Program-made: the position numbers and the translations under genes
Shown: positions 1 through 12,657 of the stretch, piece by piece
Position numbering within the stretch: the stretch's first letter is position 1
Layout of the letters: the number at the start of each line of letters is the position of its first letter
DNA from: Microbacterium sp. W4I20
GTDB lineage: Bacteria > Actinomycetota > Actinomycetes > Actinomycetales > Microbacteriaceae
NCBI RefSeq assembly: GCF_030816505.1
Contig: NZ_JAUSYB010000001.1
Span: 3,534,001 to 3,598,000, forward strand
Direction: 5' to 3'
Length of the DNA stretch: 64,000 nucleotides
The notes under the pieces: model-generated
Seen by the model: the letters and a program-made list of their open reading frames with translations, nothing else
Told to the model about the DNA's origin: nothing
The model's database searches: none

Positions 1-1
1 G

Positions 2-265
2 CGTCGGGCCGGCGCCCTGCCCGCCCGACGGCTGCCGGCCGCGCGGGGCGGATCGATGCACGACGCCTGGCACCGGGCGAGCGTGCTCGGACGTGAGGAT
101 CGGACGCTGCAGGGGGCGGCGGCGCTCGCGCTCGGGGTGCCGGCCACTCGTGCACTCGCCGCCTTGCGCCGACGCCGTGAGCCCTCCGAGGGCGGCACCT
201 GGGCCGACGCCTCGACCGACTTCACGCTCGAGCCGAACCCGTTCCACGACTCGATGAGGCGCTGA
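2..265 (+). CDS. C-terminal end of an unidentified protein (5' end outside window)
   Basis: An open frame enters from the left edge and stops at TGA 263-265, giving about 87 codons with no stop and typical high third-position GC. The visible tail is Arg/Ala-rich and ends in an acidic stretch closing with NPFHDSMRR. No motif was recognised, so the function is unknown. An internal ATG lies at 56, but the frame is open back to base 2, so this is more likely the 3' end of a longer gene. A long stem-loop (292-368) follows and separates it from the convergent ABC permease. Confidence 0.45.
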   Translation, partial: RRAGALPARRLPAARGGSMHDAWHRASVLGREDRTLQGAAALALGVPATRALAALRRRREPSEGGTWADASTDFTLEPNPFHDSMRR

Positions 266-291
266 GCCGCCGCACGGTCTGCACCCCTCGT

Positions 292-368
292 AAAACCCAG
301 ACCACGTCACCCGCTCGCGGCGCGCCGGATGCCGACACACCTCTAGCGGGCCGCGGCGTCTGGGTTTT
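292..368. terminator. Bidirectional stem-loop terminator
   Basis: AAAACCCAGAC (292-302) is perfectly complementary to GTCTGGGTTTT (358-368). A nested CCCGCT/AGCGGG pair lies inside at 310-315 and 345-350. The A/T ends give a U-run on either strand, as expected between the convergent genes ending at 265 and 397. Confidence 0.65.
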
Positions 369-396
369 CCCACGCCACGGCCCGCCCGCCACCCGC

Positions 397-1176
397 TCAG
401 TTGCTGCGCGTGATCGCCCGCACTCCGACCACGAGCCCGACGACCGCCACGGCCAGCGCCGAGACCCAGCCCCAGAGCACGGTCGCATTCCCGAGGTCTC
501 CGGCGAACAGGGCGCGTTCGGCCTGCACGACCCAGTTCACGGGGTTGACCGAGGCCACGACCCGCATCCAGTCGGGGGCGTCGTCCAGCGGCAGCAGCAT
601 GCCCGACAGGATCAGCAGCGGGAAGATGAGCGCCTGCTGCACGCCCCAGAACAGCCACTCCCGGTCCTTCGTGGCCAGCGCCAGCGAGTACGACAGCGAC
701 CCGAGGCCCACACCGAACACGGCGAGCAGCGCCAGGCCGATCAGTAGTCCGGGGATGTCGGCCGCGAAGCCGAACGGCCAGGCGATCAGGACGATCACGA
801 GCGCCTGCACCACGATCGGTGCGATCTCCTTGAGCGCCCGGCCGACGAGCAGCGACGAGCGCGCGAGGGGCGCGACGAGCGTGCGCTCGTGCGAGCCGGT
901 CATCATCTCGTACTGCAGGTTCGACCCGGTCGCACCGGTGCCGAACAGCACGATCATCACCAGCACCCCGGGCACGAACCAGGCGAGCGTCTCGCCGGCC
1001 GGCTGACCGGAGCCGCCGATCAGCAAGGGCGCGAACAGCCCCAGGAAGACCAGCGGTTGCAGCAGGCTGAAGATCAGCGTGAACGGATCGCGGAGCACCG
1101 GCTTGAGCTCGCGGGTCAGCACGTTCCGGGTGTCGCGCGCGAGGTTGGGGCGCACGGGGGCGGTGGTCGAGGTCAT
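397..1176 (-). CDS. ABC-2 type transporter permease (DrrB-like)
   Basis: Integral membrane subunit of a drug or lipid exporter, 259 aa. About six hydrophobic segments can be seen (around residues 33-53, 68-86, 119-140, 147-170, 178-200 and 230-255), which is the ABC-2 membrane topology. The loop after the second segment (GSNLQYEMMTGSHERTLVAP) resembles the conserved cytoplasmic loop of DrrB-type permeases. The ATG at 1174-1176 overlaps the stop of the upstream ATPase (ATGA), so the two are translationally coupled. The frame stays open upstream, but that part is shadow coding of the ATPase gene. Substrate unknown. Confidence 0.9.
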   Translation of the reverse strand: MTSTTAPVRPNLARDTRNVLTRELKPVLRDPFTLIFSLLQPLVFLGLFAPLLIGGSGQPAGETLAWFVPGVLVMIVLFGTGATGSNLQYEMMTGSHERTLVAPLARSSLLVGRALKEIAPIVVQALVIVLIAWPFGFAADIPGLLIGLALLAVFGVGLGSLSYSLALATKDREWLFWGVQQALIFPLLILSGMLLPLDDAPDWMRVVASVNPVNWVVQAERALFAGDLGNATVLWGWVSALAVAVVGLVVGVRAITRSN

Positions 1177-2228
1177 GAGAGGACTCCTGTCTTGCTGGTC
1201 TCGGATGCGGTGGGCGCGTCGGTCGCCTCGGAATCGGATGCTTCGCCTCCGGCATCCGTCCCCTCTCCGGCTTCGCGCAGGGTGCGCCCGGTGAGCGCGA
1301 GGAAGACATCGTCGAGAGTCGGAGGCACGCCGGTCGCACGGCGGACGAGGATACCGGCGGCGTCGAGGTCCCGGACGATGACCGGGAGCAGCCGGTCGCC
1401 GTCCGGCACCGAGAGTGAGACGGCATCGCCGTCGACGGTGACCTCGGCCGAGCTCAGCCGGGCGACGACGGGACGGGCGGATGCTGCAGCGGCGGCATCC
1501 GAGAACCCGAACGTCAGCACGTCGCCCGCGAGAGTGGCCTTGAGGGCGGTGGCGTCGTCGTCGGCGATGATGCGTCCCTTGTCCATGACCATGACGCGCT
1601 CGGCGTAGCGGTCGGCCTCCTCCAGGTAGTGCGTCGTGAGGAAGACGGTCGTGCCGTGCTGAACCCGCAGGTCGAGGATGTGCTCCCACAGATTCGCCCT
1701 GCTCTGCGGGTCGAGTCCGGTGGAGGGCTCATCGAGGAAGATCAGCGGTGGGGCGTGCATCAGGCCGAGCGCGATGTCGAGCCGGCGCTTCTGCCCGCCA
1801 CTCAATTGCTGCACGCTCCGCGTCGCGAACGAGGACAGGTCGAGCGATTCGATGAGCTCGTCGGCCCGCCGCACGCTCGCCTTCTTCGACATCCCGTAGA
1901 ACGCGCCCTGGCTCAGCAGCTCGTCGCGCACGCGCTGCGAGAAGCTGCCGCTGGTGAGCTGGCCGACGTAGCCGATGCGGGAGCGCACGCCCGCGGCATC
2001 CGTCCTGATGTCGTGTCCGACGACCCGCGCCGTGCCGGAGGTGGGCGGGATGAGGGTGGTCAGCATCCGGAGGCTGGTCGACTTCCCGGCGCCGTTCGGT
2101 CCGAGGAAGGCGACCAGCTCGCCGGCGGTCGCTGCGAAGGAGAGGTCGGTGACAGCGTGCACCGGCTTCTTCTTGACGGTGAAGACCTTGGACAGGCCCT
2201 CGGCTTCGATGATGGATTCGTTCGTCAT
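1173..2228 (-). CDS. ABC transporter ATP-binding protein (DrrA-like)
   Basis: ATPase partner of the permease that follows, 351 aa. Walker A GPNGAGKS is at residues 43-50, followed by signature LSGGQKRR, Walker B LIFLDEPSTGLD and the switch histidine in TTHYLEEAD. After the ~230-residue nucleotide-binding domain comes a ~90-residue domain typical of the DrrA family and then an acidic Ala/Thr-rich tail. The start is fixed by TACCTT exactly 6 nt upstream, which implies a leaderless mRNA. It diverges from the WYL regulator across a 62-bp gap containing a 17-bp palindrome, so local control by that regulator is likely. The family exports antibiotics or lipids; the substrate here is unknown. Confidence 0.93.
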   Translation of the reverse strand: MTNESIIEAEGLSKVFTVKKKPVHAVTDLSFAATAGELVAFLGPNGAGKSTSLRMLTTLIPPTSGTARVVGHDIRTDAAGVRSRIGYVGQLTSGSFSQRVRDELLSQGAFYGMSKKASVRRADELIESLDLSSFATRSVQQLSGGQKRRLDIALGLMHAPPLIFLDEPSTGLDPQSRANLWEHILDLRVQHGTTVFLTTHYLEEADRYAERVMVMDKGRIIADDDATALKATLAGDVLTFGFSDAAAAASARPVVARLSSAEVTVDGDAVSLSVPDGDRLLPVIVRDLDAAGILVRRATGVPPTLDDVFLALTGRTLREAGEGTDAGGEASDSEATDAPTASETSKTGVLS

Positions 2229-2234
2229 GCCTCG

Positions 2235-2240
2235 AAGGTA
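2235..2240 (-). promoter_or_regulatory. -10 box of the ABC exporter operon (leaderless)
   Basis: TACCTT on the minus strand is separated from the ATG at 2228 by exactly 6 nt, so transcription should begin at or beside the start codon. Confidence 0.55.
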
Positions 2241-2250
2241 GGAGCCAACC

Positions 2251-2267
2251 CGGACAGATCCTGTCCG
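2251..2267. promoter_or_regulatory. Palindromic operator between exporter and WYL regulator
   Basis: CGGACAG-ATC-CTGTCCG is a perfect inverted repeat with 7-bp arms. It covers the expected -35 region of both divergent promoters: minus -10 at 2235-2240, and plus -10 candidate CAATCT at 2278-2283. It is the obvious binding site for the adjacent regulator. Confidence 0.6.
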
Positions 2268-2290
2268 CGATCTCTGGCAATCTGTGAGAC

Positions 2291-3277
2291 ATGTCCGACA
2301 CCACCTCGCGAGCGCTGGCCCTGCTGAACCTCCTGCAGACGCACCGGCATTGGCCGGGCACTGAACTGGCCACCCGCCTCGGGGTGACCGAGCGCACGGT
2401 ACGCCGCGATGTCGATCGGCTGCGCGACCTCGGTTACCGCGTCGAATCGACCCCCGGCGCTGCCGGCGGTTATCGACTCGAGGCGGGGAGCGCCGTGCCG
2501 CCGCTGCTGCTCACCGACGACGAGGCGGTCACGATGGCGATCGGATTGCGGGTCGCGGCCACGCAACAGCTCGTCGGCGGACCCGAGGTCACGCTCACCG
2601 CGCTCGCCAAGCTCGAACAGGTGCTGCCGTCGGCGCTGCGTCAGCGGGTCAACGCGCTCGCCGCATCCGTGCAGCCACCGCGCATCGGCGACGCTCCGGT
2701 CGTCTCACCCGTCGTGCTCGGCGAGATTGCCATGGCCACCCGCGACACCGAGCGCCTGCGCCTGCGATACGTGGATGCGGCGGGGGAGGAGAGTGTCCGC
2801 CGCGTCGAACCTCACGCCCTCGCGCCTTCCGGGCGCAAGTGGTTCCTGCTCTGCTGGGACCTCGATCGCGAGGACTGGCGCACGTTCCGCGTCGACCGGA
2901 TCGCCTCGGTGGAGCACGCCCGGGTACTGTTCGCGCGGCGGGAGATCACCGAGGCCGAGATCGAGGAGCGGGTGCTCATCGCCTCGTCCTGGTCGCCGCA
3001 GAAGGTCGAAGGGGATGCCGTGATGGAGCTGCCGCTCGAGGAGATGCAGGACCGTTTCGGCCCGTGGTCGCAGGGAGCGACCGCCGAGGGCCCGGAACAT
3101 ACGCGCTGGCCGATCGGCGGCTCGGACTGGCGAGAGGCGATGTATGCGTTCCTCTGGATCCCGGCGGGCGTCGAGTACGCGATGACCTTTCCCGAGCCGG
3201 ATCGCGCCGAGCTGCGCGAGGCGGCGGAGCGGATGCTGCGCGCGATCGACGCGCCGGTTCCGGTGGCGCGGGGGTGA
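2291..3277 (+). CDS. HTH/WYL-domain transcriptional regulator
   Basis: DeoR-type winged helix-turn-helix at residues ~8-55 (LATRLGVTERTVRRDVDRL) joined to a WYL ligand-sensing domain (residues ~145-225, ending ...FRVDRIASV) and a C-terminal WCX-like extension; 328 aa, normal for the family. WYL domains sense small molecules or nucleic acids. The gene diverges from the DrrAB-like exporter and shares its palindrome, so it probably regulates that exporter and itself. It begins 7 nt after a CAATCT box, consistent with a leaderless message. A terminator follows at 3363. Confidence 0.92.
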   Translation: MSDTTSRALALLNLLQTHRHWPGTELATRLGVTERTVRRDVDRLRDLGYRVESTPGAAGGYRLEAGSAVPPLLLTDDEAVTMAIGLRVAATQQLVGGPEVTLTALAKLEQVLPSALRQRVNALAASVQPPRIGDAPVVSPVVLGEIAMATRDTERLRLRYVDAAGEESVRRVEPHALAPSGRKWFLLCWDLDREDWRTFRVDRIASVEHARVLFARREITEAEIEERVLIASSWSPQKVEGDAVMELPLEEMQDRFGPWSQGATAEGPEHTRWPIGGSDWREAMYAFLWIPAGVEYAMTFPEPDRAELREAAERMLRAIDAPVPVARG

Positions 3278-3362
3278 GAAAGCACACCGGACAGCGCTGG
3301 TGGAACAGCCGAGAGTCGGGTAGCCTTGTGACAAGTGGATCGGGAATGCTCGATCGGCGTGC

Positions 3363-3396
3363 GGCCTCCGGGAATCTCGGGGGCCTTTCGCTTTTT
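3363..3396 (+). terminator. Rho-independent terminator after the WYL regulator
   Basis: GGCCTCCG (3363-3370) pairs with CGGGGGCC (3378-3385), allowing one G-T pair, around a 7-nt loop. TTTCGCTTTTT follows. The T-run is on the plus strand, so it serves the regulator gene. Confidence 0.75.
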
Positions 3397-4136
3397 CAGG
3401 GATAGACCTTGAGACCGTACCCGTTCATGCGCCCGCTTTGAGAGCGGACGAGCTTGGTGCTGATCAGGTCCCACGCACGGTTCTCCTGCTCTGGGCGCAT
3501 CACGTGAATGCCGATCGGTCGAGCCGTCATGTCCGCGATCTGCAGACCTGAGCTGTTGGCGCTTTTCGGAGCGCAGTGGAATGCAAGTGTCTCTGGCATG
3601 CCGCGCATCCGAGTGGTGTCCATGATGCGCCGAAACTCAAGCTCAAGATCCCGATCCTCTCTCGCGCCTCGGCTCTCGAACACGACGCGCGCGGTCCGAT
3701 GAGCTTGGCCGCGTTGCTGAAGCTGGAGGAAGATTCGTTCGAGACCGAATTCAAGAGCGACGTGATACGGATTCACCTGGCCGCCTCGTCGATCTCGGAA
3801 GCGCGTCTTGTCGATCACGCATGCCACGATGCCGAAGCGAGAGGTCTCGATGATGCTGTTCATGCGCTGCATGAAAGCCTCGCGGACACCCTCGTTCAAG
3901 AGGATGTCGAAAGGCGGGGCCGACTTCCGGATCTCGCGCTCGTGGAGGATGACCATGTCGTGTCCGAAGAACTCGAACTTCAACGCCTGGACTTTGGGAA
4001 CAACAGTCGAGATGTAGTCGCTGACCGGGAACATGCAGAACGACAATACGAACATGGGGAACTGCGGATTGATGTTCGTGAGGCTGTGGTCGCCGCTCTC
4101 GTCGACGTAGATCACATAGTCGCTGAAGTCTGGCAT
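3396..4136 (-). CDS. DUF3800 domain protein
   Basis: 246-aa protein with the DUF3800 opening motif YVDESGD near residue 10, the conserved QIADM stretch late in the protein and a basic C-terminus. DUF3800 proteins are widespread, often near mobile or defence genes; their biochemical role is not settled. The start is chosen because TACGCT lies exactly 6 nt upstream of the ATG; a further in-frame ATG 7 codons upstream lacks this. The gene is visibly poorer in GC than its neighbours, suggesting acquisition by transfer. It lies alone between the WYL terminator and the 3' end of the siderophore operon. Confidence 0.88.
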   Translation of the reverse strand: MPDFSDYVIYVDESGDHSLTNINPQFPMFVLSFCMFPVSDYISTVVPKVQALKFEFFGHDMVILHEREIRKSAPPFDILLNEGVREAFMQRMNSIIETSRFGIVACVIDKTRFRDRRGGQVNPYHVALEFGLERIFLQLQQRGQAHRTARVVFESRGAREDRDLELEFRRIMDTTRMRGMPETLAFHCAPKSANSSGLQIADMTARPIGIHVMRPEQENRAWDLISTKLVRSQSGRMNGYGLKVYP

Positions 4137-4142
4137 CGCCCC

Positions 4143-4148
4143 AGCGTA
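4143..4148 (-). promoter_or_regulatory. -10 box of the DUF3800 gene (leaderless)
   Basis: Minus-strand TACGCT, 6 nt (ggggcg) and then the ATG at 4136. Confidence 0.5.
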
Positions 4149-4230
4149 CGGTCGCATCAATGGGGCGAATCGGACACGCCCGCGGACTCCGCGGTATATA
4201 GCGTTTCGCCGCCGAGGGTCGGCCGCCTTC

Positions 4231-5122
4231 TCACAATCCGAGCTGATCGAGCTTCTCCTCGAACCGCACCTGCACGTCTTCCGGCTCCACGTCGTCGAGC
4301 TCGGCCCAGATCGCATCCAACTCCTTCTGCACCGAGTCGGGGAGGGCGGCGAACTTCTCATCCCAGGAGTCGATGGGTGTCCAGTAGCCGACGACCTTGA
4401 AGCGGGTCGCGGGCAGTCCCAGCTCCCGGCGCAGGTACTTTCGCACGTCGCGCAGGGCGACCGTCTCTCCGGCGACCCAGACGTACCCCTCGTCGAGGGG
4501 GAGGGCGGGCGTCGACGATGCCGCGGACGAGCTGGCCGAGGGCACTCGGGCCGTGGCCGTTGCCGCCGACCATCCAGGTGACCTCGACGTCGGGGCCGGC
4601 GGTGAACTCGATCCGGTCCGCTTCGCTCGGCACCTCGAGCACGACGCGGGTGCGCACCCCGGCCGGCGCCTCGGCGACGAGGCGTGCGACGGCGGGCAGG
4701 CCGGTGAGGTCCGCGGCGAGCACCTGCCAGGTGATCCCCTCCGGCGGCGAGTAAAGACCGGTCGGGGTGTTGAGGCCCAGCACGTGCCCGGGCTCGGCGC
4801 GTGCAGCCCAGGGCCCTGCGACTCCGGCCTCGTGCACCACGAAGTCGATGTCGAGCTCACCGGCATCCGGTCGTACGCCGCTGATCGTGTACGTGCGCAT
4901 CGGCGCCGCGGGCGCGCCCTCCGGCGTCTCCCACCAGTCACCCGCGGGCACGGGGAGCGACACATCGGTCGGATCGTCGCCATGCGGGAAGAACACCCGC
5001 ACGTACTCGTCGCCGATCCCGGTGCTGAGGAACTCGGCGACTCCCTCACCGCCGAGCGTGACGCGGATCAGGGTCGGCGTGAGGGCGGTGGTGCTGCTGA
5101 CGATGCCGCGGTGGATGTTCAC
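4231..5122 (-). pseudogene. Siderophore-interacting protein (SIP, FAD/NAD(P)H ferric-siderophore reductase family), frameshifted
   Basis: The N-terminal two thirds (MNIHRGIVSS... through the FAD-binding RTYTISGVRP and the NAD-binding region with MVGGNGHGPSAL) and the C-terminal third (VWVAGETVALRDVRKYL... to the stop at 4231) are in different frames. They join at the G-rich run 4496-4509. Removing one C from the coding-strand CCCCC restores a continuous ~296-aa protein reading ...ARPPLDEGYVWVAGE, the normal family length. SIPs release iron from imported ferric siderophores by reduction. The GTG start overlaps the upstream ABC stop (GTGA), making this the last gene of the siderophore operon. 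It may be a true pseudogene or, more likely, a base-call error. Confidence 0.85.
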
Positions 5123-6981
5123 GGAGTCTCCGTCTCTTCGGTCGGGGGTCGGTGGTCGGACGAGGCGCTGTCTGTCGGGGCGATATCGGGCTGGGCGAGA
5201 TCGGGCTGGGCGAGCCAGAAACGGCGGTACAACCCGTCGCTGGCGAGGAGTTCGTCGTGCGTGCCGTGCTCGGCCGCCTCTCCGTCGGCGAACACGATGA
5301 TCTGCTCGGCCGTGGCGGCCTGCTGCAGCCGGTGGGCGATGAGCACGGCTGTGCGATCTCGCCGCAGCACCGTGATGGCCGCTTCCACGGCGTCGCGATG
5401 GTGCAGCCCCACGTCAGCCGTCGCCTCGTCGAGGATCACGACCGCCGGATCGGCGAGGAACGCCCGCGCGACCGCGAGCTGTTGGATGCGGCCTTCATCG
5501 AGCGGCGCGGAATCGGAGGATGGATGCCGTGCGGCTCCGGCGCCGGCTCCGGCCTCGTCCTCCACCGTCACCGCCTCGACGGCCCAGTCGGCGCCGACGG
5601 CACGCAGCGCGGCGACCAACTCGACGTCGCTCGCCTCGGGGGCGACCAGCCGCAGGTTGTCGGCGACGCTCCCGCGGAAGTGGTGCAGCTCCTGCGAGAG
5701 GTAGTACGGGGCCGACGCGTCCGGAGGCAGCTGGATCCGACCGGCGGTCGGAGCGTGATGCCCCGCGATCACCCGGGCCAGGGTGCTCTTGCCCGAACCC
5801 GACGTGCCCACGAGCGCCGCGGTCGTCCCGGGCTCCACGCGGAGCGTGACGTTGCGGATCCCGCGGCCGGTGGTCGGGTAGTGGAAGTCGACGTCCTGCA
5901 GGTCTATTCCGGCGGGTGCCCGGCGTGCGGCATCCGCTCTTCCGGCATCCGCTCTCTCGGCAGCGCCGGTCGCGGTCGGCGCCAGATCGATGACGCCCAC
6001 GAGCCGGGCGAGTCCGATCGCCGCGCGCTGGATGTCGTCGAGCCCGAAGATGAGCTGGCCGACGGGGTCGAACAGGCGGTGGAAGACCAGCGCTGCCGTG
6101 GTCACCATGCCGACCGTGATCGCCCCGTCGGCCTGCAGCAGGAAGCCCGCCGCGAGGATGGCGGCCAGGCCGACCAGCTCGCCGCCGTTGATCCAGCGGA
6201 ACAGCCGGTTGGTCAGCCGCACTCCCTCGACCTGCATGCGGATCGACGCCTCGGCGCGTTGCTGCACCCGCTCGAGCGCGTGCTCCTGCTCGTTGAACGC
6301 GGTCAGCGTCTCGAGACCCTCCACAGCCTCGAGCACGGCCTGGCTGCGGGCGGCTTCACGCACGCGCACCTCGCGGAACACCACCCGGGATCGGCGGAGG
6401 AAGGCGCGGGTGCCGAGCAGGTAGAGCGGCGCGGATGCGATGCCGGCGAGTGCGAGCCAGGGATCGAGTGCGGTCAGGGCGATCAGCGAGACTCCGATCG
6501 CGAAGCCCGCCGACAGCAGGGTGGGTGCGACGTCGCCGCCGGCCTCGGCCACCGCGTCGACGTCTCCGGTGACGCGGGAGAGCAGGTCGGCGCTCTCGCC
6601 GTCGTCGACCGCGCTGACCGGCAGTCGCATCGCGGAGGCGAACACGTCTTCCCGAAGGCTCGCCAACACGTCCTGCACCAGGGAGATGAGCACACGATTC
6701 GCCCACAGCATGACCAGTGCGGCGCCGATGGCCCCGGCCCCTGCACCGGTTACCCAGGCGGCGATGGTCGGCCCTCCGGCGTCGGTGGAGACGGCGTCGA
6801 CGATCCGCCCCAGACAGGTCGGCATCACGATCCCGAGAGCGGATGCCGTGAGGAAGAGCGCCGCGACCGCCGTCATCCGGCCGGGATGCCGGCGCAGCAG
6901 CATCCCGACGACCGCGCGCACGCGGGCAGCGGTGGCGATCGGCAGAAGAGTCGTCTGCGCGCCGTCAGTCACGTCGTTCAT
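5119..6981 (-). CDS. ABC half-transporter (membrane domain + NBD) with degenerate signature motif
   Basis: 620 aa: six-helix transmembrane domain (residues ~35-310), then a nucleotide-binding domain with Walker A GTSGSGKST (392-400), Q-loop Gln430, Walker B VVILDEAT (514-521) and switch His550. The LSGGQ signature is replaced by LDEGRIQQ (494-501). An ~80-residue stretch between Q-loop and Walker B carries an Ala/Gly-rich insert. It overlaps the preceding half-transporter by 17 nt and must form a heterodimer with it. Sitting between a siderophore ABC importer and a SIP gene, it matches the IrtAB arrangement of mycobacteria, so ferric-siderophore import is likely; siderophore export is the alternative. 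Confidence 0.9.
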   Translation of the reverse strand: MNDVTDGAQTTLLPIATAARVRAVVGMLLRRHPGRMTAVAALFLTASALGIVMPTCLGRIVDAVSTDAGGPTIAAWVTGAGAGAIGAALVMLWANRVLISLVQDVLASLREDVFASAMRLPVSAVDDGESADLLSRVTGDVDAVAEAGGDVAPTLLSAGFAIGVSLIALTALDPWLALAGIASAPLYLLGTRAFLRRSRVVFREVRVREAARSQAVLEAVEGLETLTAFNEQEHALERVQQRAEASIRMQVEGVRLTNRLFRWINGGELVGLAAILAAGFLLQADGAITVGMVTTAALVFHRLFDPVGQLIFGLDDIQRAAIGLARLVGVIDLAPTATGAAERADAGRADAARRAPAGIDLQDVDFHYPTTGRGIRNVTLRVEPGTTAALVGTSGSGKSTLARVIAGHHAPTAGRIQLPPDASAPYYLSQELHHFRGSVADNLRLVAPEASDVELVAALRAVGADWAVEAVTVEDEAGAGAGAARHPSSDSAPLDEGRIQQLAVARAFLADPAVVILDEATADVGLHHRDAVEAAITVLRRDRTAVLIAHRLQQAATAEQIIVFADGEAAEHGTHDELLASDGLYRRFWLAQPDLAQPDIAPTDSASSDHRPPTEETETP

Positions 6982-8611
6982 CCGATCCTCGGGAGGGCAG
7001 GTCCACGACCCGATCGCAGGCGTCGAGCAGCAGGGGAGACGTGGTGATCACGATGGTCGTCGTTCCGTGCCGCGCGAGCGCTCCGGCGATGTGCGCCTCG
7101 GTGACGGCGTCGACCGCCGAGGTCGGCTCGTCGAGCACGAGCACCTCGGCGTCGGCGTGCAGTGCGCGCGCGAGCCCGATGCGCTGCCGCTGCCCGCCGG
7201 AGAGCCGACGACCGGCCTCGCCGACCGGGGCATCCCACCCGCCGACCTGGTCCACCGTGTCGTGTAGGGCCGCCGCATCGATGAGGTCGGCTCGAGGCAG
7301 ATCGGTCGTGCGGTGGCCGCGCACCGCCTCGCGCAGCGTTCCGTTCACGATCGTCTGGCCGTGCGGCGGGGCGACGACGCGTCGGCGGTAGTCCTCCGGG
7401 TCCAGCTCGCCCGCATCGAGGAGCGTGCCGCCGACCGAGATCGCCAGTCCGCCCCGCGGCGGAACGGTGCGCATGCCGAGCAGCCGGGAGAGGGCGCGTG
7501 CGGCGTCGCTGTCGGATGGACGGATGCCGACGAGTTCGCCGACGCGCACGTCCACCTTCGGCGCATCGGGGTCAACGCGGAACCGCAGCACCACATCTTC
7601 GGGCACGGCCGGACGATCCGGGCGATCCATGGGCGCGGCGGGCGGTTCGAGGAGGTCTTCCGCGTCGATCACCGCGGCCAGCCTCTGGGCGGAGGCGAGC
7701 TTGTGGATCCAGTTCGAGGGGAACGTGCCGGCGAAGGCGAGGGAACCGCTGATGAATTGGGCGAGTCCCAGCACCGTCACCAGTTCGCCGATGCTGATCC
7801 GCCCCTCGGCGGCGAACCATGCCGACAGGCCGGCCAAGGCGGTCGTCGCCACGGCGGCGAGGGTCGCGCTCACGGCCTCGGAGGCGGCGAGGGATCGTCC
7901 GGCGGTGGTCGCGGCCACCCGGGAGACGTCGCTGGCCGCGGCGTAGCGCCGTACCGCCTCTTCGCGTGCGCCGATGCCGACGAGCACCCGGAACCCGGTC
8001 ATGAAGTCGGCGGCGACGGCCCCGGCCTCGGTCGCTGCGCGCTGCTCGGCGTGTCCTCGACGCTCGAGCGGACGCGAGACGACTCGCATCACGAGCATCA
8101 TCACGGCGGTCGACGCGAAGACCACGAGGGTCGCGACGGGGGAGATCACGAGCATGGCCAGTGCCGCCCCGATGATCGCCGCGATCGTGGCGCACTGCTG
8201 GGCGACCGACCATGCGACGCCGGCCACCCGGTACGTGTCGGAGGTGACGAAGGTCAGCGCCTCGCCGGGACTCAGCGCGCGGCGGGAGAGTCGTGGGCGC
8301 AGCATGCGGGAGAGCGCGAGGTGACGCAGCGCCTGCTCGCCGTGGCCGTAGACACCGACCATCAGCCGGGAGGCACCCTGGTAGCTCGAGCTCAGCACCA
8401 GGAACGTGGCGACCAGCACTCCGATCCAGAGCGCGAGCGCGAGCGGGTCGGCGGGGAGGACGGCGCGGTCGATCGTGGCGCCGATGATGACCGGGATCGT
8501 CGCCTCCGCCAGTGAGTGCAGCACGAGCAGCGCGGTGGCCGCGGTCAGCGAGAGCCCGCGCCCCTGGGCTGTGAGGGCGATCCGGAAGAGCCGGCGCGGA
8601 GTGTTCGTCAC
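6965..8611 (-). CDS. ABC half-transporter with lost Walker A and switch histidine
   Basis: 548 aa: transmembrane domain (residues ~20-310) and an NBD whose Walker A has decayed to RPSDSDAAR (364-372), with no lysine. The Q-loop reads PPHGQ and the switch histidine is Thr (VITTSP, ~524). The signature LSGGQRQR (470-477) and Walker B VLVLDEPT (490-497) are intact. It therefore supplies the signature for the partner's ATP site but cannot bind ATP normally itself. GTG start overlapping the upstream ATPase stop (GTGA). See the partner gene ending at 5119 for the complementary losses. Confidence 0.9.
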   Translation of the reverse strand: MTNTPRRLFRIALTAQGRGLSLTAATALLVLHSLAEATIPVIIGATIDRAVLPADPLALALWIGVLVATFLVLSSSYQGASRLMVGVYGHGEQALRHLALSRMLRPRLSRRALSPGEALTFVTSDTYRVAGVAWSVAQQCATIAAIIGAALAMLVISPVATLVVFASTAVMMLVMRVVSRPLERRGHAEQRAATEAGAVAADFMTGFRVLVGIGAREEAVRRYAAASDVSRVAATTAGRSLAASEAVSATLAAVATTALAGLSAWFAAEGRISIGELVTVLGLAQFISGSLAFAGTFPSNWIHKLASAQRLAAVIDAEDLLEPPAAPMDRPDRPAVPEDVVLRFRVDPDAPKVDVRVGELVGIRPSDSDAARALSRLLGMRTVPPRGGLAISVGGTLLDAGELDPEDYRRRVVAPPHGQTIVNGTLREAVRGHRTTDLPRADLIDAAALHDTVDQVGGWDAPVGEAGRRLSGGQRQRIGLARALHADAEVLVLDEPTSAVDAVTEAHIAGALARHGTTTIVITTSPLLLDACDRVVDLPSRGSDERRD

Positions 8612-9399
8612 GGGGTGCGCCGTCGGCCGAGCGGAAGCACGAGCGGGGTGCCGGCGACCGGGTCGACGATCACCCGGCAGGGCAGGTCGTACACGGCCTC
8701 GACGAGCTCGGCGGTGATGATCTCGCGCGGGTCGCCCTGCGCGACGATCGCTCCCTCGCGCATCGCCACGAGGTGCGTCGCATAGCGGGCCGCGTGATTC
8801 AGGTCGTGCAGCACCGCCACCAGAGTCGTCCCGTTGCGGTGGAGGTCGGCGAACAACTCCATCAGATCGATCTGGTGCGCGATGTCGAGGAACGTCGTCG
8901 GCTCGTCGAGCAGCAGGTGCTTCGTCTGCTGGGCGAGGGCCATCGCGACCCAGACGCGTTGGCGCTGCCCACCGGACAGCTCATCCACGAGGCGCCGCGA
9001 CAGGTCGGTCACCCCGGTGGCGGCCATGGCGTCCGACACGGCACGCTCGTCGGTGCTGCTCCAGGTGCGCAGGGCGCTCTGGTGCGGGAACCGGCCGCGG
9101 CCCACGAGGTCGGCGACGGTGATGCCGTCCGGGGCGATCGACGACTGGGGGAGGAGCCCGAGCTTCCTGGCCGCCTCCTTCGGCTTGAGCGCGCGCAGCT
9201 CCGCGCCGTCGAGGAGCACGGTGCCGGTGGTCGGACGCAACAGGCGTGCGAACCCGCGCAGCAGCGTCGACTTGCCGCACGCGTTCGGGCCGATGATGAT
9301 CGTGAACGAGTCATCCGGAACCTCGAGCGAGAGCGCGGAGACGACCGGGGTGTCCCCGTATCCCAGCGTGATGTCGCGGGCCAGCAGTGAAGCGGTCAT
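8608..9399 (-). CDS. Ferric-siderophore ABC importer ATPase (FepC/FhuC-like)
   Basis: 263-aa cytoplasmic ATPase: Walker A GPNACGKST (37-45), Q-loop LGLLPQ, signature LSGGQRQRVWVAMALAQ, Walker B LLLDEPTTFLD and switch histidine in VAVLHDLNHAARY. The TTFLDIAHQ and HDLNHA stretches are characteristic of the iron-siderophore/B12 ATPase subfamily. It starts at ATG 9397-9399, 11 nt after the permease stop; the open frame upstream is shadow coding. It powers the two FecCD permeases encoded immediately before it. Confidence 0.95.
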   Translation of the reverse strand: MTASLLARDITLGYGDTPVVSALSLEVPDDSFTIIIGPNACGKSTLLRGFARLLRPTTGTVLLDGAELRALKPKEAARKLGLLPQSSIAPDGITVADLVGRGRFPHQSALRTWSSTDERAVSDAMAATGVTDLSRRLVDELSGGQRQRVWVAMALAQQTKHLLLDEPTTFLDIAHQIDLMELFADLHRNGTTLVAVLHDLNHAARYATHLVAMREGAIVAQGDPREIITAELVEAVYDLPCRVIVDPVAGTPLVLPLGRRRTP

Positions 9400-9410: not shown

Positions 9411-10514
9411 TCACGCGCGGCGCGCGTACTGCGCGGCGAGCAGCCAGGCCAGATAGATTCCGCCGACCGAGACCGTCACGACGCCGACGGGCACGGCGAC
9501 GAGCTGCCCGACAGCATCCGACACCACGACGAGTGCGGCGCCGGTCAGCATCACGGGCACCGTGCCCATCGGGGTGTTCGAGCGGGTGAGCCGCTGCGAG
9601 ATCTGCGGTGCGGCGAGAGCGATGAACGAGATGGGGCCGGCGGCGGCGGTGACGAGCGCGATCAGGGCGACGCCGAACACCATCGCGGCGAGGCGGGTGC
9701 GGCCCGGGCTGATGCCCAGCGACGTCGCGGCGTCGTCGCCCATCTCCAGCACGGGGAGGGTGCGGTTGAGGGGGAGGGAGAGCAGCGTGACGATCCCGAA
9801 CACGATCGCGGCGGGGATGAGTTGGTCGAAGCCGAGGGAGGCGAGCGAGCCGGCCCCCCACGTCGCCGCCATCATCGCTTTCTCGACGCTGACCGAGATC
9901 AGGATCCACGAGGTGAGCGAGCCGAGACCGGCGGACACGCCGATGCCGACGATGATCAGGCGGAACGACGACAGGGTGTTCTTGCTGGCGAGCACGTAGA
10001 CGAGCAGCGCCGTGAAGAGTCCCCCGATCAGCGCGCCGGCCGCCTTGAACATGTAGGTGTTCAGCTCGAGCACGACCATCGTCAGGGTCACGCCGAACTG
10101 CGCGCCGACGCCGAACCCGATGATGTCGGGGGAGCCGAGCGGGTTGCGCGTGAGCGACTGGAAGATGCCGCCGGCCAGGGCGAGCGCCGCGCCGCACAAC
10201 ACCGCGAACAGCACGCGCGGCAGGCGCCACTCCAACACGACCTGGCGGATGTCGGGATCCGACGACGGATCCACCACGGCGCGGAGCACGGCGCCGAAGT
10301 CCACCTCGTAGGCGCCGATCGTCATCGAGGCGAGCCCGGTGCCGACGATCACAACGGCGAGAGCCGCGCACACGACGACCGCGCGCAGCGGGATCAGGCC
10401 CGCGATCCGTGCGGTCTCGATGCGGAGCTGGCGGCGGCCGAAGTCGACCGGTGCGAATTCCGCGGCGGCGACGTCGGAATCCTGCCCGGTGGCAGACCGC
10501 TGATCGACGGTCAC
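9411..10514 (-). CDS. FecCD-family siderophore ABC importer permease (second)
   Basis: 367-aa membrane permease of the BtuC/FecCD fold. An N-terminal cytoplasmic stretch of ~40 residues is followed by about ten hydrophobic helices. Family marks include GGIFQSLTRNPLGSPDIIGFG, the GAxxG motif in WGAGSLASLGF, and GPISFIALAAPQISQRL near the C-terminus. The GTG start overlaps the stop of the first permease (GTGA). It forms the channel together with that permease. Confidence 0.95.
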   Translation of the reverse strand: MTVDQRSATGQDSDVAAAEFAPVDFGRRQLRIETARIAGLIPLRAVVVCAALAVVIVGTGLASMTIGAYEVDFGAVLRAVVDPSSDPDIRQVVLEWRLPRVLFAVLCGAALALAGGIFQSLTRNPLGSPDIIGFGVGAQFGVTLTMVVLELNTYMFKAAGALIGGLFTALLVYVLASKNTLSSFRLIIVGIGVSAGLGSLTSWILISVSVEKAMMAATWGAGSLASLGFDQLIPAAIVFGIVTLLSLPLNRTLPVLEMGDDAATSLGISPGRTRLAAMVFGVALIALVTAAAGPISFIALAAPQISQRLTRSNTPMGTVPVMLTGAALVVVSDAVGQLVAVPVGVVTVSVGGIYLAWLLAAQYARRA

Positions 10515-11599
10515 AGTCCACTCACCCGCTTGCGTCGGACGAGCATGATCAGGATCGGCGCACCCAGCAGGGCGGTGACGATCCCGACGCGCAGCTCACC
10601 GCTGGGGAGCACGATGCGTCCGAGGACATCCGCGAGCAGCAGGAACGCCGGTCCGACGATCATCGAATAGGAGAGCACCCAGCGCTGATCGGGGCCGGTG
10701 AACCAGCGGACGACGTGCGGGATCATGAGGCCGACGAAGGCGATGGGGCCGGCGGCCGCGACGCTCGTTCCGGCGAGCAGAGTGACGGCGATGATCACCA
10801 GCACTCGCGTCACGCGGACGCGCGCCCCAAGGGCCTGCGCCAGGTCGTCGCCCAGCGCCAGCGCGTTCAGTGAGCGCGCGCACAACAGGCCGATGAGGAG
10901 CCCGAGGGCGATCAGCGGTCCCGCCCAGGCGAGCTGGTCGATGGTGCGTCCGCCGATCGAGCCGACGCCCCAGAAGCGCATGACCTGGAGCGTCCCGAGG
11001 TCGCGCAGCACGATCGCGGTGGTGAAGCCGGTGAATGCGGCACCGAGCGCGACGCCGGCGAGCGTGAGCTTCATCGGGGTGGCACCGGACCGGCCGAAGG
11101 AGCCCAGGGTGTAGACCAGCAGCGTCAGCACGAAGGCGCCGAGCAGGGCGAACGGGACGTAGGCCCCGGGAGTCGTGAGTCCGAGCACTCCCACCGCGAA
11201 CGTCACGGCGAAGGAGGCGCCCGCGTTCACGCCGAGGATGCCGGGGTCGGCGAGCGGATTTCGGGTGAAGGCCTGGATGAGTCCCCCGCACACGGCGAGG
11301 GCGGCGCCCACCACGATGCCGAGAAGGGTCCGGGGCACCCGCAGCTCCCGCACCATGAGGTGCAGCGGGTCGGCGTCGTCGTACGACAGCAGTGCGTTCA
11401 GCACCGTGACCGGATCGATCGCGCGGTTGCCGACGGCGAGGGAGGCGATGGATGCTGCCGCCAGCACCACCGCGGCGAGGACGAGCCCCGCCGCGAGTGC
11501 CGCGGTGCGGTGCGGGGAGTCGTCTGCGCGACTCCCCGCACCCGTGTTCGAGGTTCCGGTGGCGTCCTGGGTCGCTGCCGGGCGGGGGAGAGAGGTCAC
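10511..11599 (-). CDS. FecCD-family siderophore ABC importer permease (first)
   Basis: 362 aa with the same fold as the following permease. Marks are GGLIQAFTRNPLADPGILGVN, WGVGSIGGRTIDQL and GPIAFVGLMIPHVVRWFTG. A ~35-residue polar N-terminus precedes the first helix. Start GTG 11597-11599 overlaps the lipoprotein stop (GTGA), so coupling is expected. Pairing with the second permease as a heterodimer is standard for this family. Confidence 0.95.
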   Translation of the reverse strand: MTSLPRPAATQDATGTSNTGAGSRADDSPHRTAALAAGLVLAAVVLAAASIASLAVGNRAIDPVTVLNALLSYDDADPLHLMVRELRVPRTLLGIVVGAALAVCGGLIQAFTRNPLADPGILGVNAGASFAVTFAVGVLGLTTPGAYVPFALLGAFVLTLLVYTLGSFGRSGATPMKLTLAGVALGAAFTGFTTAIVLRDLGTLQVMRFWGVGSIGGRTIDQLAWAGPLIALGLLIGLLCARSLNALALGDDLAQALGARVRVTRVLVIIAVTLLAGTSVAAAGPIAFVGLMIPHVVRWFTGPDQRWVLSYSMIVGPAFLLLADVLGRIVLPSGELRVGIVTALLGAPILIMLVRRKRVSGL

Positions 11600-12657
11600 T
11601 TCCCTGCGATCGTGGGCTCGCCCTGCAGCGCGCCGGCGAGGTCGTCGACGTACTTCGGGAGGATGTACTTCAGCGACAGCACGGTCGGTGCGCTGATGGC
11701 GGAGGCCTCGGCGTCGTCGGCGTAGATCACGTAGGAGCCGGCCGCGATCGGCTCCCAGCGGGAGACGACCTTGTTCTCGACCGTGTACTTGCCCTCGTCG
11801 GCGCTGCCGCCCCATGCGGCGAACAGATCGGCCTGCACGTCGTAGAGCTTCTCCAGGCTGACCCCGGTGTACCAGTTGTCGCCCTCGGCGCTCGCGAGGA
11901 AGCTGTCCATCGCCGAGGTCGAGGTGAACCCCAGTGCCTCGGTGATGCGCACGCGCGGGTCGTACTCGAGGTACACGCCCAGGTCGGTCCCGCCCTCGTT
12001 CAGCGTGAGTCCCCAGACGAACGTCTTGTCGTCGAACTCGGGGTGCTCGTCGGCGAGCGAGGTGATCAGCTCCTCGGTCTCGCCGATCAGCTCCTCCGCC
12101 TTGGCTTCCTCCCACATCGCGGCGCCGACGGTGCGCGTCATCCCCTCCCAGGTGCCGGGATTCCAGGGGCCTTCGACGTACGGCACGGTCGGTGCGATCT
12201 CGGTCAGTCGCTCGTATTCGACATCCGTCACGCCCGAGTAGAGGCTGAGGATCAGGTCGGGCTTGAGCGCCTTGATCGCCTCGTAGTTCGGGCCGTCCTC
12301 GAGGAAGGGGATGATCTCGGGGGTCTCGCCGTACTCGTCGGTCACGAACTCCTCGAACCAGGGCTGGTAGCCGCTCTCGTCCGCGCCCCAGACCTCCTCC
12401 ATGCCGACCGGGTTCGTGCCGAGGGCGGCGACGATGTCGGGTGTCATCCATCCCAGGGTGACGATGCGCTGGGGCTTCTTCGAGATCACGGTCTCGCCGT
12501 GTCCGTGCTCGATGACCACGCCGTCGGCGGCAGTCGGCGCGGATTCCGCGCTGTCGGCGGATGCCGTGCAGCCGGCCAGGGCGAGGGCTGCGGCGACGGC
12601 CGCAGCGACGAGGGCGGAGCCTCGGCGGATCTTCGGGCGCGCAGAAGCGTGCGTCAT
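11596..12657 (-). CDS. Iron-siderophore substrate-binding lipoprotein (FepB/FecB-like)
   Basis: 353-aa periplasmic-binding-protein-type lipoprotein. A basic N-terminus and hydrophobic stretch end in lipobox LALAGC, so Cys30 would be lipidated after signal cleavage. Mature sequence shows PQRIVTLGWMTPDIVAALG and LKPDLILSLYSG, hallmarks of the class III siderophore-binding fold. It is the first gene of the seven-gene operon. An iron box at 12710-12728, ~53 bp upstream, indicates DtxR/IdeR-type iron repression. Confidence 0.95.
   Translation of the reverse strand: MTHASARPKIRRGSALVAAAVAAALALAGCTASADSAESAPTAADGVVIEHGHGETVISKKPQRIVTLGWMTPDIVAALGTNPVGMEEVWGADESGYQPWFEEFVTDEYGETPEIIPFLEDGPNYEAIKALKPDLILSLYSGVTDVEYERLTEIAPTVPYVEGPWNPGTWEGMTRTVGAAMWEEAKAEELIGETEELITSLADEHPEFDDKTFVWGLTLNEGGTDLGVYLEYDPRVRITEALGFTSTSAMDSFLASAEGDNWYTGVSLEKLYDVQADLFAAWGGSADEGKYTVENKVVSRWEPIAAGSYVIYADDAEASAISAPTVLSLKYILPKYVDDLAGALQGEPTIAGK

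Follow-up and report, generated by a model that had tools for sequence, protein, structure and literature searches.

In a 64,000-nucleotide stretch of the Microbacterium sp. W4I20 genome (contig NZ_JAUSYB010000001.1, positions 3,534,001 to 3,598,000; this whole stretch is hereafter the window), two genes encode ATP-binding cassette (ABC) half-transporters, subunits A and B, whose motif losses are complementary. Judged from their aligned sequences, one complete ATP site is built from the Walker A motif, Q-loop, Walker B Glu, and switch His of B together with the LSGGQ signature and D-loop of A, and the opposite site lacks both a phosphate loop (P-loop) and a consensus signature. The best explanation, to which we assign a probability of roughly 0.6, is an obligate heterodimer, a type IV ABC transporter with a single ATP site that probably moves siderophores outward. 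A search for pairs with the same losses, suggested in the original prediction made from the DNA alone, found them to recur in 137 distinct pairs, and the trait is genuine: it sharply defines a variant of the heterodimeric exporter that is widespread.

Thirteen canonical residues were scored for each composite site: on the Walker side, the three Walker A glycines, Lys, and Ser/Thr, the Q-loop Gln, the Walker B Asp and Glu, and the switch His; on the partner side, the signature Ser-Gly-Gly and the D-loop Asp. Site 1 (Walker side of B, signature side of A) carried 13/13 of these residues in the window and site 2 (Walker side of A, signature side of B) carried 3/13, in agreement with the original prediction of complementary losses that leave one complete and one dead composite site. 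The open reading frames (ORFs) and the alignment bore out the individual losses as well. In A, Walker A, the Q-loop Gln, and the switch His were lost and LSGGQRQR and Walker B were kept; the Lys and all three glycines of Walker A were missing, and Pfam matched ABC_membrane at residues 24–291 and ABC_tran only over profile positions 60–137 of 137, with the Walker A half absent. Neither a displaced P-loop nor an indel hiding one, which the prediction had set as its refuting condition, was found by pattern search or alignment. In B, Walker A, the Q-loop, the Walker B Asp and Glu, and the switch His were all intact, LDEGRIQQ replaced LSGGQ, and ABC_tran covered the protein from 2 to 137. Two features went beyond the first account, namely the replacement of the D-loop Asp of B by Gly and a gap in A at the A-loop column of the alignment.

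AlphaFold2 models of the two subunits had a mean predicted local distance difference test score (pLDDT) of 90.2 for A, a confident model, and 88.7 for B. At the place of the P-loop, the model of A showed a strand (residues 360–364), a turn (365–367), and a helix from residue 368, which is aligned to Gly395 of B; the corresponding helix of B begins at Lys398. In the model, the phosphate loop is absent from A, and a helix starts where the P-loop should be. The C-terminus of A (6965–7040, minus strand) is short in the clade of the window, where the 32 close pairs have a median of 24 residues past the switch position; the median was 41 residues in 103 pairs of distant members.

Relatives of A were present in 93 of the 394 class genomes sampled and 17 of the 249 family genomes (E ≤ 1e-45 in both cases), and in 31 of the 198 genus genomes (E ≤ 1e-60), the genome of the window being included each time. 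The motif table comprised 148 loci: 28 named loci, 84 of the 111 class-level places (which exclude the window), 19/19 family-level places, and 17 of the 37 genus-level places, the 20 remaining genus-level places being close orthologs with short loci only. Six loci (L010, L011, L016, L096, L159, and L188) were left out of the residue counts as truncated, broken, or having a non-adjacent partner. The resulting 142 complete pairs, to which the window's own pair does not belong, correspond to 137 distinct pairs, as five contigs were fetched twice.

Site 1 was complete (13/13) in 136 of the 137 distinct pairs, and site 2 had at most 4/13 in all of them. The pattern GxxxxGK[ST] after residue 300 was absent from all 148 related A proteins and present in 144 of the 147 B proteins (the exceptions, L016, L096, and L159, are cut or broken); GK[ST] alone was found in two of the 148 A proteins, not at the P-loop place. 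Across the 142 pairs, the Walker A Lys of A was never present, and its three glycines (positions 1, 4, and 6) were retained in one, two, and one pairs, respectively, never two together. The Q-loop Gln of A was likewise absent throughout (His in 123; the position was invariant in 73 alignment rows of A), as was the switch His, and the signature SGG and D-loop Asp of A were present in 142/142. Walker B of A retained Asp in 51 pairs and Glu in 76; by type, it was Asp-Glu, as in the window, at 52 of the 148 loci, His-Asp at 53, and otherwise at 43. Each of the three Walker A glycines and the Lys of B, its Q-loop Gln, and its Walker B Asp-Glu were found in 142/142 pairs and its switch His in 141, with Arg in the sole exception (L207). 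The signature of B kept Ser in 11 pairs, the first Gly in five, and the second Gly in 40, and its D-loop position was Gly in 123 and Asp in 19. In gene order, A was directly upstream of B at 146 of the 148 loci and downstream at one, and at one locus the partner lay across a nonribosomal peptide synthetase (NRPS) gene. Three residues past its Q-loop Gln, B has an invariant His (residue 433; 60/60 alignment rows).

The ratio of nonsynonymous to synonymous substitution rates (dN/dS) in the nucleotide-binding domain (NBD) of A had a median of 0.335 over 291 overlapping ortholog comparisons, below 1 and higher than in its transmembrane domain (TMD; 0.201); these ratios are rough because dS is high (medians 0.78–0.84) and the ortholog pairs overlap. 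Chance or decay is unlikely, because the trait recurs in 137 distinct pairs and dN/dS is below 1 in the NBD of A. P-loop-less proteins served as seeds in the searches. Near its limit, a wider, phylum-level search returned classic degenerate-site pairs in which both P-loops are intact (5/20 fetched loci, the 15 others being P-loop-less in A), so the missing intermediates are not simply a cut-off effect, and closer intact relatives may exist beyond the sampled set.

A and B, with 60 rows apiece in a 170-row tree, each formed one side of a branch, with support of 100 and 99, respectively, in the Shimodaira–Hasegawa-like approximate likelihood ratio test (SH-aLRT); in the tree with classic pairs added, the two clades were supported at 100 and 100. 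Both trees were computed with the motif columns retained. Pairwise distances of A and B were correlated (r = 0.905; 0/1000 permutations as high). The single clades and the co-divergence are consistent with one origin followed by retention as a pair, and a single origin of the family is likely on these alignments. Classic degenerate-site pairs of the same phylum (five loci) had P-loops in both subunits, with Glu changed to Asp in the first and LSGGQ missing in the second. Their first subunits grouped with A (support 93), and grouping of their second subunits with B was allowed by the approximately unbiased test (p-AU 0.558). Placing A and B as sisters, which corresponds to duplication inside the family, was 19 log units worse and was not rejected (p-AU 0.219).

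Profile searches of the PDB gave, among the best 60 matches of A, the half-transporters MsbA (296.7 bits), TM287 (293.6), TmrB (292.1), BmrC (YheI; 287.8), and TM288 (285.5). Among the best 60 of B were TM288 (395.4 bits), TmrA (390.2), and then MsRv1273c/72c chain B and MsbA (387.6); TM287 and TmrB were not among these 60. P-glycoprotein-like two-half proteins topped the lists because their two halves add up. By profile, the nearest solved heterodimers among the matches listed are TM287/288 and TmrAB, with the same polarity, which the classic pairs of the phylum show too. This polarity and the grouping of the classic pairs point to a path that starts from a classic heterodimer, in which the P-loop was likely lost late, at an already impaired site. 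At two loci (L254, positions 1–7100; L256, positions 2050–9000), a classic degenerate-site pair stands in tandem with a P-loop-less pair, giving four half-transporter genes in a row, possibly a trace of tandem duplication or a joint module.

The window's pair lies in an iron operon that reads, 5' to 3', substrate-binding protein (SBP), FecCD, FecCD, Fec-type ATPase, A, B, and siderophore-interacting protein (SIP). Overlaps of a few bases join the ATPase, A, B, and SIP genes in series, the A and B ORFs sharing 17 bp. The genome measures 4.31 Mb in two contigs, and its nearest named relatives with subunit A are Microbacterium. The best NCBIfam match of the Fec-type ATPase was an iron-enterobactin ATPase, under the cut-off of that model. 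Neither A nor B contains a SIP domain by Pfam; the SIP protein is encoded by the separate downstream gene, in which tblastn placed a frame change at ~4499–4503. This gene was a single open frame in 5/5 orthologs compared, and the frameshift may be a sequencing error or a recent loss.

We examined the family loci for four markers within ~7.5 kb (SIP, FecCD, a siderophore-type binding protein, and N-monooxygenase) by blastp with the window's own proteins and with monooxygenase and NRPS probes, a test that other siderophore genes escape. The probes came from an all-against-all clustering of neighbouring ORFs, which served for nothing else because overlapping frames of the high-GC DNA dominated it. 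Markers were present at 33/35 close, 7/7 intermediate, and 52/106 distant loci (92/148 in all), compared with 0/28 controls (unrelated ABC loci, the other half of the 56-locus named set). For distinct loci, the counts were 28/30, 7/7, and 52/106 (87/143 in all). All of these counts are inflated by shared ancestry, some of the distant loci without markers are cut by contig ends, and the control loci were shorter and from mixed taxa. The order SBP-FecCD-FecCD-FecE-A-B-SIP was found at 24 of the 35 close loci and, minus SIP, at four more. Nine plasmid records were found, seven were opened, and three had annotated genes at the place: the Streptomyces copy lies within a hydroxamate NRPS siderophore cluster, the Rhodococcus copy within a catechol siderophore cluster that has isochorismate and SIP genes, and the Arthrobacter copy has no annotated iron gene nearby. 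In the probable Streptomyces genome G538 (loci L257 and L188), the order is monooxygenase, FecCD, FecCD, FecE, SBP, B, NRPS, A. The siderophore context proposed in the original prediction is real for most loci seen; its use as a sign of import is weakened by the full Fec-type importer already in the window's operon.

No match to IucA/IucC or to an NRPS condensation domain was found in the window genome. Among 28 genomes with close orthologs, IucA/IucC occurred in four and the condensation domain in five. The window genome is therefore unlikely to export a siderophore made by these routes, which leaves import, or the recycling of one that is borrowed.

We propose that ATP would be bound and hydrolyzed at site 1 only. 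Site 2 would be a nucleotide-free protein interface that holds the NBDs together or guides them, its protein contacts replacing the "ATP glue" ascribed to the degenerate sites of known heterodimers. Our guess from the sequences is that the common Q-loop His of A and the Gln-rich segment in place of the signature of B form a substitute contact. The pump would act, with less certainty, on siderophores and most likely outward: within a biosynthetic cluster it would export the self-made siderophore, and in the window genome and its close relatives it would send back the emptied siderophore after Fec-type import and reduction by SIP. We lean, by a little over even odds, toward a broader form of this proposal, namely an ancient actinobacterial ABC family that would use one ATP per cycle, with a site 2 that never binds nucleotide, a P-loop turned into a helix cap, a partner signature turned into a fixed protein contact, and an NBD dimer held by protein alone.

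Several observations weigh against a one-site siderophore exporter. The window's A retains the Walker B Asp and Glu, which would be needless in a wholly unused site, and ATP may be held at site 2 by other residues, by analogy with the Pdr5 site, which binds ATP with Lys, Glu, and His replaced. The structures of A and B are single-chain predictions only. None of the four markers was found at 54/106 distant loci, and pairs whose B retains the D-loop Asp had markers in only 3/19, so motif loss is independent of the iron genes. The SIP gene is broken by a frameshift in the window genome. Finally, the SIP pairing and the missing synthetases fit an importer as well, and the direction of transport rests on context.

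An importer of the IrtAB/YbtPQ kind, with one ATP site and passing ferric siderophore to the SIP reductase, is possible but rather doubtful. The original prediction had suggested an IrtAB-like importer, and this part of it did not hold: IrtAB has two catalytic sites in the account cited below, and it was not among the best 60 PDB matches of either subunit. The same operon already holds a complete Fec-type importer, and some pairs lie inside biosynthetic clusters. Filing the pair as IrtAB-like was rejected on the grounds of the NBDs and the nearest relatives, the absence of IrtAB from the best 60 matches being no proof.

It is unlikely that the pair is an ordinary degenerate-site heterodimer in which site 2 keeps ATP through the Walker B Asp/Glu, loops of B, and non-motif residues, in a cycle like that of TM287/288 or Pdr5. 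Such a transporter would account for the Walker B Asp and Glu of A in the window and 52/148 relatives; the fold and closest relatives of the pair are of this kind, and the deviant site of Pdr5 is described in the cited text as holding ATP despite its Lys to Cys change. Against it, the Lys, Q-loop Gln, and switch His of A are missing in 142/142 pairs and the loop glycines nearly so, the partner signature Ser is missing in 131/142, the modelled loop is a helix start, and Walker B of A is His-Asp rather than Asp-Glu in 53/148 relatives. Because the P-loop is gone, the glue and deviant-site ATP explanations are unavailable to site 2 unless other residues stand in.

A multidrug or other exporter that is near iron genes incidentally is improbable, given markers at 92/148 family loci versus 0/28 control ABC loci and the FecE-A-B order kept at most close loci; multidrug exporters are, in its favor, among the closest solved relatives, and it would fit the 54/106 distant loci without the tested markers and the Arthrobacter plasmid copy. 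That A is a decaying gene and B a functional homodimer is highly implausible and was judged so from invariance, co-divergence, and dN/dS: the NBD of A has a higher dN/dS than the TMD (0.335 vs 0.201) and its C-terminus is shorter in the window's clade, but its SGG and D-loop Asp are invariant (142/142), A and B co-diverge, G538 has both although an NRPS gene intervenes, and two copies of B, which is without a consensus signature, could not make up a complete site.

Table 1. Features of the transporter pair and its operon in the window (positions counted from the first letter of the window).
Feature	Position	Strand	Basis
Subunit A, 548 aa ABC half-transporter (TMD-NBD), without P-loop	6965..8611	-	ORF, GTG start
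Erased Walker A of A, residues 365-373, PSDSDAARA	7493..7519	-	Aligned with GTSGSGKST of B, in register, no indel
Q-loop position of A, His417 for Gln	7361..7363	-	Alignment
Intact signature of A, LSGGQRQR, residues 470-477, serving site 1	7181..7204	-	SGG in 142/142
Walker B and D-loop of A, VLVLDEPTSAVD, residues 490-501	7109..7144	-	LDEP and D-loop Asp intact
Switch position of A, Thr524 for His	7040..7042	-	Alignment
Subunit B, 620 aa ABC half-transporter, full Walker set, without consensus signature	5119..6981	-	ORF (ATG start), Pfam
Walker A of B, GTSGSGKST, residues 392-400	5782..5808	-	GxxGxGK[ST]T in 142/142
Degenerate signature of B, LDEGRIQQ, residues 494-501	5479..5502	-	Alignment
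D-loop of B, Gly525 for Asp (TADVG)	5407..5409	-	Alignment
SIP gene downstream of B, frameshifted near 4500	4231..5122	-	SIP profile split over two frames
Fec-type siderophore import ATPase, stop overlapping the start of A	8608..9390	-	ABC_tran
FecCD-family permease	9411..10514	-	PF01032
FecCD-family permease, coding part of longer ORF, putative start	10511..11500	-	PF01032 in 10514-11500
Siderophore-type substrate-binding protein	11596..12657	-	PF01497

Directly downstream of the iron operon, a DUF3800 protein is encoded at 3396–4361 on the minus strand. Further along are an ABC-2 type exporter (ATPase and permease; 397–2228, minus strand) and, alongside it on the opposite strand, a WYL-domain regulator (2291–3277).

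Why heterodimeric exporters retain a dead site has been discussed, and one proposed answer, in the part of the study cited, is that ATP remains there as glue (PMC12038006). A natural family with an erased phosphate loop and an invariant complementary half allows this glue hypothesis to be tested on an unengineered pump. Should the pump run on a single bound ATP, protein can serve as the glue, and a natural pump of the exporter fold could dispense with the canonical sandwich's second ATP. Relatives are common, under names such as "ABC transporter ATP-binding protein". Among titles and abstract openings of the open-licence PMC literature, with subscription papers outside this scope, we found no bacterial ABC exporter described as having a P-loop-less subunit; PMC11109279 (OmrDE) and PMC13293324 concern other matters than such a pair.

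Among known systems, TM287/288, BmrCD, TmrAB, and MsRv1273c/72c are two half-transporters, as here, and are among the best fold matches of A and B; by profile, A is like their subunit whose Walker side is impaired and B like the one whose signature is altered. Heterodimers of the TM287/288 type keep Walker A in both subunits. Their degeneracy consists of a Glu to Asp change and an altered signature, whereas here the P-loop itself is gone, and the Walker A fit to hold ATP that is expected of degenerate-site exporters appears to be lacking. MsRv1273c/72c is described in the cited part of its study as binding ATP in both sites (PMC12038006).

The original prediction had held that loss of the P-loop is unusual. 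It does exceed the usual degenerate site, but a damaged Walker A combined with a damaged partner signature has precedents, as far as the cited passages describe them, in Pdr5 and ABCG5/G8. The deviant site of Pdr5 carries Lys to Cys, Glu to Asn, and His to Tyr changes with LNVEQ in the partner (PMC7756269), keeps ATP, and has a D-loop said to be unaltered (PMC8421411). As here, the Walker A Lys and the partner signature are lost in Pdr5 and other fungal pleiotropic drug resistance (PDR) transporters, in which all motifs of one composite site are altered; within Walker A, the passages cited name a replacement of the Lys alone, and the NBD precedes the TMD in a single chain, in contrast to the TMD-NBD order and two genes found here. 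ABCG5/G8, with a Walker A of GSSGCGRAS and a signature of ISTGE in the excerpt used (PMC7756502), likewise has a bad Walker A in one subunit and a bad signature in the other. It belongs to the ABCG family, and ABCG8 keeps the loop glycines, which A has lost.

IrtAB and YbtPQ share with the present pair the heterodimer, a link to a SIP-type domain, and apparently the exporter fold. In IrtAB this domain is fused to IrtA, whereas SIP is a separate gene here. According to the cited section on IrtAB, each of its two sites has a catalytic Glu and is occupied by ATP (PMC10246721), in contrast to the 3/13 residues of site 2.

In the coelichelin locus of Streptomyces coelicolor, we take SCO0492 to be the NRPS and SCO0498 the monooxygenase. 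In the portion of the literature cited, CchCDEF correspond to SCO0494–0497, CchGI (SCO0491 and SCO0493) is the presumed coelichelin exporter, and SCO6426, another ABC protein of this species without ATP-binding residues, is regarded as a remnant (PMC12161575). The gene order of G538 fits the cch numbering, and its two ABC subunits, an A without P-loop and a B without signature, are encoded on either side of the NRPS gene; the likeness rests on gene order, not on sequences. The family may include CchGI, and given this possibility, it also bears on how actinomycetes move siderophores.

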